Origin: Veillonella criceti
GTDB taxonomy: Bacteria > Bacillota > Negativicutes > Veillonellales > Veillonellaceae
Assembly: GCF_900460315.1 (NCBI RefSeq)
Contig: NZ_UHIO01000001.1
Location: 520,001-584,000, forward strand
Reading direction: 5' to 3'
DNA: 64,000 nt
Shown: positions 23,658 through 29,761 of the stretch, piece after piece
How the letters are laid out: the number at the start of each line of letters is the position of its first letter
Numbering within the stretch: position 1 is the stretch's first letter
Translations under genes and position numbers: made by a program
The notes under the pieces: generated by a model
Seen by the model: only the letters and a program-made list of their open reading frames with translations
Database searches by the model: none
Told to the model about the DNA's origin: nothing

Positions 23658-26600
23658 TTAACCAAATAAACTCATTTGTTCATCTTCTGGCAAATCACCA
23701 AAACACCCCAAATCACGCATAGTAGCTAAAATACTTTCAGAAATCTTACACCGCCGTTGCACATCCTTTACAGATGTAAAAGGACTCTTTGCCCGTTCTT
23801 CCACAATAGCATCCGCTACCTTTTCACCTAAGCTATCAACGGCTACAAACGGTGGCAATAAGGCCCCTTCATGAATTTTAAAACGCCGTGCATCAGAATG
23901 ATTTAAGTCAGCTACTAAGAAATTAAAACCTCGCTGTTTCATTTCCATAGAAACTTCTAAGGCACTCATCATATCTTTATCTTTATTAGATGCTTTTCTA
24001 TCCAATGCTTTCAAACGTTCAAACTCAGCTCTTTGACTTTCTAAGGAACTGGCCATAATTTTCATATCATACGCTTTTGCACGAATCGAGAAGTAAGCCG
24101 CATAAAAAGCTAATGGGTAATTAATCTTAAACCAAGCAATGCGGAAAGCCATCATAACATACGCCACGGCATGAGCACGAGGGAATAAATAGGAAATCTT
24201 TTTACAGGAATCAATAAACCAATCAGGAATCCCCCCTGCACGCATTTGCTCTTCATAATCTGTTTCTTTTTGTCCTACTTTATTCAGTTTATCAATGCCT
24301 TTCCCCTTACGTACATTTTCCATAACCTTAAAGCACGTAAGTGGTTCAATATCACGATGCATTAAAAAGTTCATAATATCATCGCGAGTAGAAATAGCTT
24401 CATTTAATTTACAAGTACCATTTTTAATTAACGTTTGCGCATTATCGAGCCATACATTTGTACCGTGCGAAAAACCAGAAATACGCACTATATCTGAAAA
24501 ATGTTGTGGCTTAGAATCTTCTAACATGCGCCGTACAAAACCAGTACCACATTCTGGCACCGCAAGGGACGCCACTTTATCCCCCATCAACTGCTCTGGC
24601 GTTAAACCAATTGCTTTAGTAGAGGAAAATAAACTCAATGTTTCAGGATCATCAAAAGGAATCGTTTGAACATCAACGCCCGTAATATCTTCTAACATAC
24701 GAATAATCGTAGGATCATCATGGCCCAGAATATCAAGTTTTGTCATACAACCTTCAAAAGAGTGATAATCAAAATGAGTCGTAATGATACCACTATCTTT
24801 TTTATTGGCTGGATATTGTACTGGTGTAAATTCGTGAACATCCATATCGCGTGGGCAAACCATAATCCCACCCGGATGTTGACCAGTTGTATTTTTAACA
24901 CCAGTTACCCCTTTAGCAAGGGCTTCTAAGAACCCCTGCCGCGCTTGAATATCTTGTGCTTCTGCATATTTTTTTACATAACCAATGGCTGTTTTTTCAG
25001 CAATAGTACCAATAGTACCTGCACGGAATACATTATCACGGCCAAATAATTCTTCGGTGTATTTATGAGCTCGTGGCTGATAATCACCAGAGAAGTTAAG
25101 ATCAATATCAGGTACTTTATCACCATTGAACCCCATAAAAATCGCAAATGGAATATCATGACCATTTGTATTCAATGGTGTACCACATTCAGGACAATTC
25201 TTTCGAGGTAAATCAAACCCCCCCGCGTATTCACCTTTTTCAAAGAATTCACTATGTTTACATTTAGGGCAAATATAGTGCGGTGGTAATGGGTTTACTT
25301 CCGTAATATCCGCCATCGTAGCAACAAAAGACGAACCAACCGAACCACGAGACCCTACTAGATAACCATCATCTAAAGATTTTCGTACCAATTTATGAGC
25401 AATATAGTACAGCACACCATAGCCATTGCCAATAATACGAGTTAATTCATAATCTAATCGATCAGCTACAACTTTTGGTAATGGATCCCCATAAATCTCT
25501 TTGGCTTTTTTATAGCACATCTCCGTTAAATCATTATCAGCGCCTTCAATTTTTGGCGAATACGTCTTGCCTTGTGGCACTGGTTGTAACGACTCAATAC
25601 TATCATTAATCATACGCGAATTGGTAACAACCACTTCATAAGCTTTTTCTTCACCCAAATATTTGAACTCTTCTAACATTTCGTCAGTTGTACGTAAATA
25701 TAAAGAAGGCGTTCTTTCAATATCTTTAAAACCAGACACAGTTAACATAATTTGGCGATAAATCTTTTCATCATCATTTAAATGATGAACGTCGCAAGTT
25801 GCCACAACTGGTTTATTTAGAATTTCACCAAGTTCAACGACTTTTTTATTAATATCTACTAAGAAAGATTCTTCCCGAATCTGCTCTCCAGTTCGTCTAT
25901 CATATAATAAAAAGCGGTTATTCTCTAGGGGCTGAATTTCAAGATAATCATAAAACGAGGCAATCTCTAACAAGCGTTCCTGAGACTCACCTTTTACAAT
26001 AGCTCGAATTAATTCCCCTGCCTCACAGGCAGACCCAATAATAATGCCTTCTCGATGATCTTCAATAACAGCCCGTGGCAATCGAGGACGTCGTTTATAA
26101 TATTGCAAATGAGAAATACTTATCATCTTGTACAGATTGCGTAACCCCACTGTATTTTTAGCTAATAAAATGATGTGAGACCGTGTATCATTCTCTTCAT
26201 CTTCAATCAGATAGCCTTCTACACCATAAATCACTTTGACACCAAGTTTCCCCGCAATATCTTGTGCTTCAGGAAAAGCTTGAATCACGCCATGGTCAGT
26301 AATAGCAACCGCAGGATGTCCCCAATCTTTAATGGTTTGTAATAATTCTTTCACATTAACAAGTGCATCACGGTCACTCATCTTTGTATGTAAATGAAGT
26401 TCTACACGAGAATCTTCACGATTTTCACTTCGTTTCGTTTCTTTTTTCAATTCCTGAATGCTACGCAAAGACAGGATGTAATCTTTCTCAAATTTATCAT
26501 CATAATGTACATCCCCTTGGATGCGAACACCCTTAACTGTTTGCATCATCTTAGTAAGTTCACGTGCCTCTTCTACATCATCTATAAATTTAACGAAGCG

Positions 26601-27305
26601 CATACTGTTCGTACCATCTACAATGCTACCTTTAATAAGGCCTTTACCTGTTTTTGTTTCAATCATTTCAATATTCACAAAAATGCCTTCAAAAATAACA
26701 TTGTTCATTTCTTCATTAACAAAAGAAATAGATAATGAATCACCAGTAATAGTAGGCCCTAATAGCATGCCCGGATCCGTTACATCACGCTTAAAGCTTC
26801 GACGCCGTTTCCCCTTATAGGCAAATCCACCTTCACCACCACTGATAGGCGCTGTTGATTTAGCAGGTTCATAATCACAGACTATCGGCTCTTCATACAT
26901 ATCAATAGGATCGTCATCTACCCTAGAAAACGGAAAAAACTCTTCAGCAAACTCATCAAAACCGTCCGTAGCAGCTTCATCTGAATGAGAACTTTGGTGT
27001 TGCGCTGATAGTTCTTTAATTAAATCAGCTACATCATAACCACCGGCAAAAGCAAATTCTTCTGCCGTATGATCATGAATCGGTTCGGAGTCCCAACGAT
27101 ACCCAAATGCCGTAGACTCTTTTACGGTAACGGCATGTGCCTGAATGTGTTTAGACTTATACCAGTTATCGAGCTTATTATGTAATAATTTAAATGCTTC
27201 CTCTGAGGACAGCACATTTTTTACTTCTATAGCCTTATCATTGGTTTCAATAAGCATTGCTGTTTCTTGCTTAGCTTTTGGAACTATATGATATCGTACT
27301 TTCAT
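23658..27305 (-). CDS. polC: replicative DNA polymerase III alpha subunit PolC, lacking the inserted exonuclease domain
   Basis: Gram-positive-type replicative polymerase of 1215 residues, ~220 fewer than B. subtilis PolC. Order: a variable N-terminal domain with an acidic linker (~105-150); an OB fold (~190-290); the PHP domain (~300-510); a zinc finger (Cys679, Cys682, Cys704, Cys707); and the palm with DIDLNFSG (Asp733, Asp735) and LDILGHDDPT. Normally a DnaQ-like 3'-5' exonuclease interrupts the PHP domain after the YGVE/YGLE motif. Here VIYGVEGYLIEDEE runs within about ten residues into the RSHIILLAKN strand, and no DxE exonuclease motif exists anywhere. All nine PHP metal-ligand positions are occupied: His304, His306, Asp313, His338, Glu363, His377, Cys427, Asp505, His507. 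It is the last gene of the comEA-comEC-holA-VanW run. Proofreading may rest on the PHP site or a separate DnaQ; that is inference. Confidence 0.95.
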   Translation of the reverse strand: MKVRYHIVPKAKQETAMLIETNDKAIEVKNVLSSEEAFKLLHNKLDNWYKSKHIQAHAVTVKESTAFGYRWDSEPIHDHTAEEFAFAGGYDVADLIKELSAQHQSSHSDEAATDGFDEFAEEFFPFSRVDDDPIDMYEEPIVCDYEPAKSTAPISGGEGGFAYKGKRRRSFKRDVTDPGMLLGPTITGDSLSISFVNEEMNNVIFEGIFVNIEMIETKTGKGLIKGSIVDGTNSMRFVKFIDDVEEARELTKMMQTVKGVRIQGDVHYDDKFEKDYILSLRSIQELKKETKRSENREDSRVELHLHTKMSDRDALVNVKELLQTIKDWGHPAVAITDHGVIQAFPEAQDIAGKLGVKVIYGVEGYLIEDEENDTRSHIILLAKNTVGLRNLYKMISISHLQYYKRRPRLPRAVIEDHREGIIIGSACEAGELIRAIVKGESQERLLEIASFYDYLEIQPLENNRFLLYDRRTGEQIREESFLVDINKKVVELGEILNKPVVATCDVHHLNDDEKIYRQIMLTVSGFKDIERTPSLYLRTTDEMLEEFKYLGEEKAYEVVVTNSRMINDSIESLQPVPQGKTYSPKIEGADNDLTEMCYKKAKEIYGDPLPKVVADRLDYELTRIIGNGYGVLYYIAHKLVRKSLDDGYLVGSRGSVGSSFVATMADITEVNPLPPHYICPKCKHSEFFEKGEYAGGFDLPRKNCPECGTPLNTNGHDIPFAIFMGFNGDKVPDIDLNFSGDYQPRAHKYTEELFGRDNVFRAGTIGTIAEKTAIGYVKKYAEAQDIQARQGFLEALAKGVTGVKNTTGQHPGGIMVCPRDMDVHEFTPVQYPANKKDSGIITTHFDYHSFEGCMTKLDILGHDDPTIIRMLEDITGVDVQTIPFDDPETLSLFSSTKAIGLTPEQLMGDKVASLAVPECGTGFVRRMLEDSKPQHFSDIVRISGFSHGTNVWLDNAQTLIKNGTCKLNEAISTRDDIMNFLMHRDIEPLTCFKVMENVRKGKGIDKLNKVGQKETDYEEQMRAGGIPDWFIDSCKKISYLFPRAHAVAYVMMAFRIAWFKINYPLAFYAAYFSIRAKAYDMKIMASSLESQRAEFERLKALDRKASNKDKDMMSALEVSMEMKQRGFNFLVADLNHSDARRFKIHEGALLPPFVAVDSLGEKVADAIVEERAKSPFTSVKDVQRRCKISESILATMRDLGCFGDLPEDEQMSLFG

Positions 27306-27373: not shown

Positions 27374-28771
27374 TCATTCAGACTTTTTATTTGAATTCGT
27401 TGTGTTAGAAACATCCTTAGCTTTCGTATCACTCGTCTTGTCTTCAGGTTTAGCTACTTCCTTACTCGGACGCGCAATAACGGTCGTTTCAGGATCATAC
27501 GTAGAGCTAAAACTATCCGTCTTCGTACGTCCATCTTTATAAGTAAGCGATACCGTTGTATTCACACTAAGACCATCATGCCCTGCATTACGAACTTCTT
27601 CTTTTTTTAGTGTTGAATCAATGATAACTTGAGTTTCATGCGGAATTGCCGTTTCGCCACCTACGGAAACAGAGGCTTGCGTTGGTTCATCAGCAGCAAA
27701 CCCTAAAATACTAATTGTCAAAGTATCACCTACTGTATGGGCTAACACATAAATAGGATGTTCGTAAGGGTTACTAAATACAAAATCAATATAGCCATAA
27801 GCTACGGTAGCATCACGACCAGCAGGAATATAACCAACAGGCGCATAATGTGGCACTCGTTCTTCAATTGTCATACCCGATAATAAAGCAGAATTAAATA
27901 GGGTAGAGCTAACTTGACAGATACCGCCCCCAATACCAGGTACAAGCTTGCCGTCCATAAAAACAGGCGCATCATCATATCCCGCTTCAGCAGTTCGTTC
28001 ACCAACAATCACATTGAATGAAAAATTCTGATGAGGCTGAATGATTACATTATTAATCTTATCAGTTGCCAACTGAATATTATGAGTACGACTTGTATCA
28101 CCAGCATTAAACGTCGTACTATAAGTTCCTAATACAGCATTAATACCTTTTAAATCTTCAGCCGTTACCTTAGGTTTAGCCTGTTCATCAATAACAAGTG
28201 ACATACTAGTCACGTCCCCTTTTACCAGTTGTTCTTGAAGCTTAGCAATGGTTTTAGCAATATCTAGCCGTTTTCCCGTAATTTCTTTATGTAATACGAC
28301 TTTACCTGCTTCTACTGTTAAATAGGCATCATGACCACTTTTAGCAATTTCCTTATTGTATGTTTGTAACAACGCTTCTAGTGCTGGTACATTAACATCA
28401 TACACAATAGATTTAGAAACAGGATTAACTAACGCTTGCCAACGAGTTGCTACATACTCTTCAACAGTCGGCTCATAGCCATAAGCCATAATACTTTCAA
28501 TGGTTTTATTTACATTTGGTTTTACACCAATATCTGCTAATGCCACCTTAGTTTCTTTTCCATCTTGCCATTTAATTGTCATATGAGTTGGTGCTTTGGC
28601 TGCTTCCGCTTCAATAATAGCCACCAACTCGTCTTTATCGGCCCGCGAAACATCGGTTTCACCTAAATACATGCCTTGAATAACATTACCTGTCGGATAC
28701 AAAAAAGCACCAGCACTTAGGGAAACTAAACCAAGTACAGCACCTGCTATAACACCAATAGAACGTTTCAT
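27374..28771 (-). CDS. VanW-family exported protein with peptidoglycan-binding and G5-like domains
   Basis: 465 residues. An N-terminal membrane anchor or signal (~1-25) is followed by one or two putative PG-binding-4 segments (~40-215). The VanW domain follows (~225-345), with the signature NFSFNVIVGERTAEAGY and GIGGGICQVSSTLFN. Next comes a G5-like stretch (HETQVIIDSTLKKEEVRNAGHDG) and a low-complexity Lys/Thr/Ser tail. The layout is that of B. subtilis YoaR. The catalytic role of VanW domains is not established, but a cell-wall function outside the cytoplasmic membrane is expected. The gene sits tightly between holA (18 bases) and polC (68 bases), an odd place for an envelope protein. Confidence 0.88.
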   Translation of the reverse strand: MKRSIGVIAGAVLGLVSLSAGAFLYPTGNVIQGMYLGETDVSRADKDELVAIIEAEAAKAPTHMTIKWQDGKETKVALADIGVKPNVNKTIESIMAYGYEPTVEEYVATRWQALVNPVSKSIVYDVNVPALEALLQTYNKEIAKSGHDAYLTVEAGKVVLHKEITGKRLDIAKTIAKLQEQLVKGDVTSMSLVIDEQAKPKVTAEDLKGINAVLGTYSTTFNAGDTSRTHNIQLATDKINNVIIQPHQNFSFNVIVGERTAEAGYDDAPVFMDGKLVPGIGGGICQVSSTLFNSALLSGMTIEERVPHYAPVGYIPAGRDATVAYGYIDFVFSNPYEHPIYVLAHTVGDTLTISILGFAADEPTQASVSVGGETAIPHETQVIIDSTLKKEEVRNAGHDGLSVNTTVSLTYKDGRTKTDSFSSTYDPETTVIARPSKEVAKPEDKTSDTKAKDVSNTTNSNKKSE

Positions 28772-28789: not shown

Positions 28790-29761
28790 TTATTCAGCAC
28801 AATAGGCTAAACACAAATCTTTAAAATATGACACACTACCTTCACCACGCCGACTATCTCGCATCACTTCATAAAGTCCACGCAATAACTTAGCCAAAGC
28901 GCGAATAGAAATCTGCTGACTTTGCCGATAGGCAAGCGTTATGGGATACGCTTTTACGGTTGACCCAGCTTCTTTAAATAAATCCTGTACAGCGCGCTCA
29001 CTAAGTCCACTAAATCTACATTCACTAACCATTAATTGTAAGCGCAACTGTCCTTCAATATATGACATAGCCCGCTCCACTTCCTTACTTTGCAACATAT
29101 AAGGAAATAAGGTGAGCAATGTATTGACATCTTTTTTAAATAAGGCTTCTTTAAACAAAAATATATTTTTTGCCCCATAATCACTACCATTAGCTACCAA
29201 AAAGGCTTGTGTAATTTCTCCCTTTGGAGGTAACAATAAAAAGTAGCGATCAAATTCAGTACGCAAAAAACTAACTGGCACATCCTGCCAAAGTTCTAAC
29301 AAGTGATGGATATATTCAATGCCATCAGCACTCATCGTATAGCCATGAGAATGACAATATGTTTGTAACCATTTAACAATCTCAGGTCCCTTTAACCGAT
29401 CACAAGCCTCATTAGGTACACTCTTTAAAAACTCCTTATTAGGTTTGAGCCGTTTATCGATTGTCTCATGATATAAAACGAGGACGGGGTGACTACCATC
29501 ATACGTTAAGAGTAAATCATAAACTTGTTGCCACTCCTCCGTAACTCGTTTATTAGTCTTCGCAAATATAGGCGGATTCACCAAACAATACAGCGTAGGC
29601 TCACCAAACAAAGAATCTTCACTCAGCTTTTCACAAATCCGCCGAGCCCCTACTTCATCATTCAACATTTGCACGGATAAGTCTGGATAGGCTTTAAAAA
29701 AAGCTTGCTTTTTCTCCTCTATGAGCTGTGACTCATCACCATATAGTAATTGTATCGCCAT
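28790..29761 (-). CDS. holA: DNA polymerase III delta subunit
   Basis: Clamp-loader subunit that opens the beta clamp. The 323-residue protein has the three-domain delta layout: an N-terminal AAA-like domain (IQLLYGDESQLIEEKKQAF, then LFGEPTLYCLVNPP), a KFLKSVPNEACDRLKGPEIVKWL lid region and a C-terminal collar (LRGLYEVMRDSRRGEG). Delta lacks a working ATP site, as here. AGGAG precedes the ATG at 29761. Its position right after comEC is common in Firmicutes. Being upstream of polC places two replisome genes in one run. Confidence 0.9.
   Translation of the reverse strand: MAIQLLYGDESQLIEEKKQAFFKAYPDLSVQMLNDEVGARRICEKLSEDSLFGEPTLYCLVNPPIFAKTNKRVTEEWQQVYDLLLTYDGSHPVLVLYHETIDKRLKPNKEFLKSVPNEACDRLKGPEIVKWLQTYCHSHGYTMSADGIEYIHHLLELWQDVPVSFLRTEFDRYFLLLPPKGEITQAFLVANGSDYGAKNIFLFKEALFKKDVNTLLTLFPYMLQSKEVERAMSYIEGQLRLQLMVSECRFSGLSERAVQDLFKEAGSTVKAYPITLAYRQSQQISIRALAKLLRGLYEVMRDSRRGEGSVSYFKDLCLAYCAE

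Follow-up and report, generated by a model that had tools for sequence, protein, structure and literature searches.

The PolC-type DNA polymerase III alpha subunit of Veillonella criceti lacks the DEDDh proofreader that is built into PolC, the textbook replicase, and yet retains every metal ligand of an active-looking PHP domain, an exo-less architecture shared without exception by the Negativicutes examined. From the conservation of the PHP site, its modelled fold and the comparative data, the best explanation is probably that the PHP domain proofreads within PolC itself; both the nuclease activity of this domain and its proofreading in the cell are what we infer from these data. To our knowledge, mycobacterial DnaE1 is the only enzyme for which proofreading by PHP has been demonstrated in cells, and we found no literature on PolC or mutation rates in Veillonella. 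The gene lies in a stretch of 64,000 nucleotides of the V. criceti genome, referred to here as the window, with the following features:

23658..27305, minus strand: polC, DNA polymerase III alpha subunit of the PolC type, 1215 aa, exo-less (ORF, Pfam, NCBIfam, alignment)
26436..26720, minus strand: OB-fold region, about residues 196-290, limits approximate (alignment to Geobacillus PolC)
26217..26408, minus strand: first part of the PHP domain, residues 300-363, with His304, His306, Asp313, His338 and Glu363 (Pfam, alignment)
26178..26216, minus strand: 13-residue junction loop, residues 364-376, site of the exonuclease insert of about 200 residues in other PolCs (alignment)
25776..26177, minus strand: second part of the PHP domain, residues 377-510, with His377, Cys427, Asp505 and His507 (alignment; AlphaFold model of residues 296-560)
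24270..25529, minus strand: polymerase core (palm, thumb, fingers), residues 593-1012 (PF07733, PF17657)
23685..23924, minus strand: tandem helix-hairpin-helix, residues 1128-1207 (PF14579)
23664..23678, minus strand: C-terminal clamp-binding motif QMSLF, residues 1210-1214 (read from the sequence)
28790..29761, minus strand: holA, delta subunit of DNA polymerase III, lying two genes upstream of polC (TIGR01128, above cut-off)

A VanW/PG_binding_4/G5 protein is encoded between holA and polC (27374-28771, minus strand), and a comEC-like gene, named from a reading of its translation, is found near polC.

The V. criceti protein scores well over the cut-offs of both PolC equivalog models (NF001688, 1438.7 bits vs 873; TIGR01405, 1340.6 bits vs 1043.45), and both matches are split in two stretches that skip the exonuclease columns, because these columns have no counterpart in the chain. 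Pfam identifies PHP (residues 302-458), Pol3, finger and HhH domains, and the order PHP, Pol3, HhH followed by a C-terminal clamp motif is that of a PolC-type enzyme, a tail of the same kind as QMSLF being present in most other PolCs of the alignment. The first-pass annotation, made on positions 25785-26408 (exactly codons 507 to 300 of polC), had described a PolC without its proofreading exonuclease and with only some 13 residues between Glu363 and His377. Both readings were borne out: Pfam detects no exonuclease domain anywhere in the 1215-aa chain at E<=1, and the spacing in the alignment is exactly 13 residues, the same junction covering 210-219 residues in exo-carrying PolCs vs 5-39 in exo-less ones. 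A phmmer alignment to Geobacillus PolC, for which the crystallised construct, itself without the exonuclease, was used, continues across the junction, where the two chains differ little in length. Given the absence of an exonuclease match and the 13-residue loop, we class the protein as an exo-less variant and not as a canonical PolC, in which a DnaQ-type exonuclease is integral. An assembly deletion in polC is ruled out, as the same architecture is present in congeners and in 200 genomes. The shortest junction, in which 5 residues separate the PHP Glu from the His, belongs to a PolC (L283) from a small genome with no DnaQ-family match (G051).

This architecture is known in kind: in 2013, Timinskas et al. 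described exo-less PolC from Clostridia and Negativicutes alone, plus one extra copy in Thermotogae, and put it at 6% of PolCs and 16% of systems with PolC and DnaE1 (PMC3919608). Our survey agrees with that study and widens it. The deletion, which the first-pass annotation had thought worth tracing through the Negativicutes, extends across the class: the PolC family model finds a match in 200/200 genomes (30 families, 77 genera) and, among the matches listed, all full PolCs match only outside the exonuclease columns and the frames are mostly 1150-1350 aa long. A draw from the wider phylum, made evenly across families, gave 43 genomes with PolC outside the Negativicutes; 27 of these are exo-less, and one of the 43 is exo-carrying on split contigs. 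In the Bacilli-type class, the match spans the exonuclease columns in 60 of 61 genomes, the remaining match being a contig-end fragment. Two full-length exo-less PolCs were found in one genome of family f12 (G066:C5 and G066:C16), and extra PolC matches occur in several of its relatives.

The nine metal-binding positions of the PHP domain are all filled in V. criceti PolC, every residue named in the first-pass annotation being correct in the alignment, and the resulting string conforms to HHDHEH[C/H]DH, the published criterion for an active PHP site (PMC12926913). Among 199 aligned PolCs with a readable PHP site, HHDHEHCDH is found in 113/113 exo-less proteins, and the 86 exo-carrying ones comprise 47 with HHDHEHCDH and 39 with HHDHEHCNH. 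The change from Asp505 to Asn is seen only in exo-carrying PolCs (39/86), is confined to Bacilli and corresponds to one change on the tree. Asn occupies this position in 27/31 PolCs of the Bacilli-type class and aligns to Asp505 in Geobacillus PolC, consistent with the Asn given for B. subtilis PolC in the first-pass annotation, a contrast that was right in substance. Outside the Asn clade the complete ligand set is present in 47/47 exo-carrying clostridial PolCs, so that an intact set is not special to exo-less PolC, a point on which the first-pass annotation needs correcting. Asp505 as a distinctive feature of exo-less PolC is ruled out in the same way, as exo-carrying clostridial PolCs have Asp too; this Asp is common to them and probably ancestral. 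Clostridia have also been described as mostly having an active-looking PHP site in PolC alongside the exonuclease (PMC12926913). The link between the change to Asn and the presence of the exonuclease rests on one event only, and since Asn arose once, the two characters are not comparable by independent pairs.

An unrooted PolC tree was built from PHP and polymerase columns, with the exonuclease columns excluded. The exonuclease state changes about 11 times on this tree, well-supported branches forcing at least 8 changes with FastTree (144 rows) and at least 5 with IQ-TREE (75 rows), and the grouping of all exo-carrying PolCs in one clade is rejected (AU p about 4e-55, at a cost of 407 log-likelihood units). 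For the integral exonuclease domains a single origin is not rejected (AU p 0.54), so that a single insertion with repeated losses afterwards would explain the pattern most simply; alternatively, the domain may have spread by recombination. Such repeated change recommends PolC for studying what follows from losing one of two proofreaders. Two small free exonucleases, L096 (G241) and L412 (G224), group with the integral domains and are possibly PolC proofreading domains released as separate proteins; L412 has the tail QTQLDLFG, and its genome has no PolC match over the cut-off.

An AlphaFold model of residues 296-560, built from 36 exo-less sequences, has high confidence (mean pLDDT 92.8, pTM 0.90) and resembles PolC structures most closely (Z 33-37), followed by Taq PolIII alpha (4iqj, Z 29.2) and M. 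tuberculosis DnaE1 (5lew, Z 28.3, 2.1 A over 242 residues), vs Z 16 and below for PHP proteins outside the C-family polymerases. The modelled PHP domain is thus folded like that of an active DnaE1, and a common fold is by itself no proof of activity. In M. tuberculosis DnaE1, D226N (the equivalent of Asp505) or D23N abolishes the PHP exonuclease, and a loop of 29 residues beside the active site lines the DNA groove; this loop has 18 residues in Taq and 9 in E. coli, and the Thermus PHP is reported to be active (PMC5636811). The loop counts only 13 residues in V. criceti PolC, although its limits may be counted slightly differently; its shortness is a point against PHP proofreading, the E. coli PHP with its 9 residues being inactive. 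Finally, the ratio of ligand-flank to polymerase-core identity, a mean pairwise measure over groups of unequal depth for which no significance is claimed, is 1.09 in exo-less PolCs of Negativicutes, 1.17 in other exo-less PolCs, 1.02 in exo-carrying PolCs with Asp and 0.81 in those with Asn, a trend in these sequences that fits a PHP site mattering most as sole proofreader and least where inactivated.

These data also bear on the option, raised in the first-pass annotation, that PolC does not proofread. Its PHP metal site would then be structural or act as some other phosphodiesterase, with mismatch repair or DnaE1 covering fidelity. The PHP domain has a structural role in alpha subunits, which favours this option, as does the equal retention of the ligands in exo-carrying clostridial PolCs, on account of which retention may reflect a structural zinc or a role other than replacing the exonuclease. 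However, structure needs fewer than nine ligands: five are altered in E. coli DnaE, whose PHP is inactive, and one in Geobacillus PolC, which has no PHP exonuclease activity (PMC5636811). The retention of the full set in all 113 readable exo-less PolCs, across at least five and about eleven exonuclease changes, argues for catalysis and makes a PolC without proofreading very unlikely.

A second option, also put forward at first pass, is a separate DnaQ protein. The V. criceti genome encodes three DEDDh proteins, a 327-aa KapD-like exonuclease and the following two:

G000:C1:1183820-1184437, minus strand: 206-aa DnaQ-like protein ending in GEQMSFF (PF00929)
G000:C1:1455053-1455526 (L001 880-3450), minus strand: UvrD/PcrA-type helicase of 856 aa that carries a DEDDh domain at residues 493-650

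Relocation of the PolC exonuclease to another gene is ruled out in V. criceti, as all three DEDDh domains fall outside the PolC-exonuclease clade, the 327-aa protein on a very long branch. In the helicase the DEDDh domain sits inside UvrD_C, an insertion like that of PolC, and comparably sized frames giving this DEDDh match are found in Negativicutes families f1, f2 and f12.

The 206-aa protein has a DEDDh RNase_T domain (PF00929, E 1e-22, 82 bits vs a cut-off of 24), and its best NCBIfam match is 'DNA polymerase III subunit epsilon', below cut-off. Because it does not reach the curated DnaQ cut-offs (TIGR00573, 68.3 vs 71.5 bits; TIGR01406, 45.9 vs 222.7), we call it DnaQ-like only. Its tail EQMSFF resembles PolC's own EQMSLF and is identical in 11/12 family members despite differing linkers and genera. 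Clamp-like tails at the extreme C-terminus are found in 19/79 free DEDDh proteins of Negativicutes, the 19 belonging to four families and not being independent of each other, vs 0/23 in exo-carrying genomes and about 1% of other ORFs. Clamp-like tails of the forms QLSLW, EEQSLF and TQGALF are present in L159, L160, L161, L167, L174 (f16 g41), L190 (f12 g40) and L368 (f3), the QLSLW proteins lying apart from the EQMSFF protein on the exonuclease tree.

The domain, the PolC-like tail and the excess of such tails in Negativicutes favour a clamp-held exonuclease of this type that proofreads in trans, the way epsilon serves DnaE1 in E. coli. However, a homologue of the 206-aa protein at E 1e-10 is absent in 23/100 Negativicutes, which rules it out as a universal partner, the clamp-like tail is missing in most families that have a homologue, and on the exonuclease tree its domain is not a displaced PolC exonuclease. 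Moreover, eight Negativicutes genomes (G001, G019, G013, G051, G095, G043, G088 and G096) have neither a PF00929 or TIGR00573 match at E<=10 nor a homologue of the 206-aa protein. Their completeness is 96-100%, G043 is a single contig, two of the eight exceed 5% contamination, and an exonuclease that has diverged very far could go undetected in such searches; as a first PF00929 pass had been blind to a true match in G018, found by other searches, absence is claimed only after three different queries. The PolCs of these eight genomes are all exo-less and keep the nine ligands in 7/8, that of G095 being fragmentary. No known type of replicative proofreader other than PHP remains in these species. 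Since they have no detectable DnaQ-family exonuclease, a separate DnaQ is no general answer, and we consider proofreading in trans unlikely as the main route; what stands of the first-pass suggestion is a possible accessory role, for which the 206-aa protein is a fair lead, as a candidate clamp-tethered proofreader in the family of V. criceti.

A third possibility is that DnaE1 is the main high-fidelity replicase and that PolC has a limited or special task for which proofreading is dispensable. V. criceti encodes an intact DnaE1 with all nine PHP ligands, which are kept in the DnaE1 of 8/8 DnaQ-free genomes as well; PolC is missing from some relatives in the phylum, 16/61 genomes giving no match over its cut-off, and the idea was brought up for clostridial genomes by Timinskas et al. 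(PMC3919608). Because of the intact DnaE1, the description of PolC as the main replicase in the first-pass annotation is not established. On the other hand, PolC is present in 200/200 Negativicutes, its core, clamp motif and PHP site are kept where they could be read, and the PHP decay seen in DnaE2 and DnaE3, which would be expected if PolC fidelity were irrelevant, is not observed. We regard this division of tasks as doubtful; a fork led by DnaE1 could nevertheless coexist with PHP proofreading by PolC, and the rivals are not fully exclusive. Unusually long DnaE frames, of 1701 and 1356 aa vs the usual 1150, were noted in two genomes (G207:C1:379184-380065 and G249:C1:428302-429183).

Under PHP proofreading within PolC, the reading that we favour, polymerisation would be carried out by a normal PolC core, and the excision of mismatched 3' ends would fall to the PHP site of that polypeptide, with its trinuclear metal centre (probably zinc), in the manner of M. 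tuberculosis DnaE1. The ancestor of the Negativicutes probably lost the integral DEDDh exonuclease, a loss that would have been tolerable with a PHP site already complete beforehand, as indicated by the nine ligands of exo-carrying clostridial relatives. In the family of V. criceti, a free DnaQ-like exonuclease, possibly clamp-binding, may provide a second, accessory route. It is quite possible, if short of probable, that the whole class replicates with PolC and DnaE1, both proofread by their PHP domains, some species being DnaQ-free and a few families having added clamp-tethered DnaQ-like enzymes. In the DnaQ-free Negativicutes, nature provides systems with no known proofreader besides PHP, and these would allow a clean test of PolC PHP proofreading, for instance through one Asp to Asn substitution.

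The closest known system is the exo-less PolC of Timinskas et al. 2013 (PMC3919608), which has the same architecture, taxonomic range, pairing with DnaE1 and conserved PHP site; in contrast with the 6% and 16% given there, the trait is present here in every Negativicutes genome examined and in 27/43 others of the phylum. V. criceti PolC shares with M. tuberculosis DnaE1 (PMC5636811) the nine ligands, the fold and the lack of any other exonuclease in the chain, and differs from it in being a PolC and not a DnaE1, in its much shorter loop and in an activity that is so far putative. With Bacillus and Geobacillus PolC (PDB 3f2b) it has in common the OB-PHP-Pol3-HhH order, the clamp motif and about 45-49% identity in the PHP domain, whereas the Bacilli enzymes have an integral DEDDh exonuclease and mostly Asn at the position of Asp505. 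Finally, the 206-aa protein and E. coli DnaQ (epsilon) have a DEDDh fold and a clamp-binding-like motif in common, but in the former the motif lies at the extreme C-terminus and is lineage-specific.
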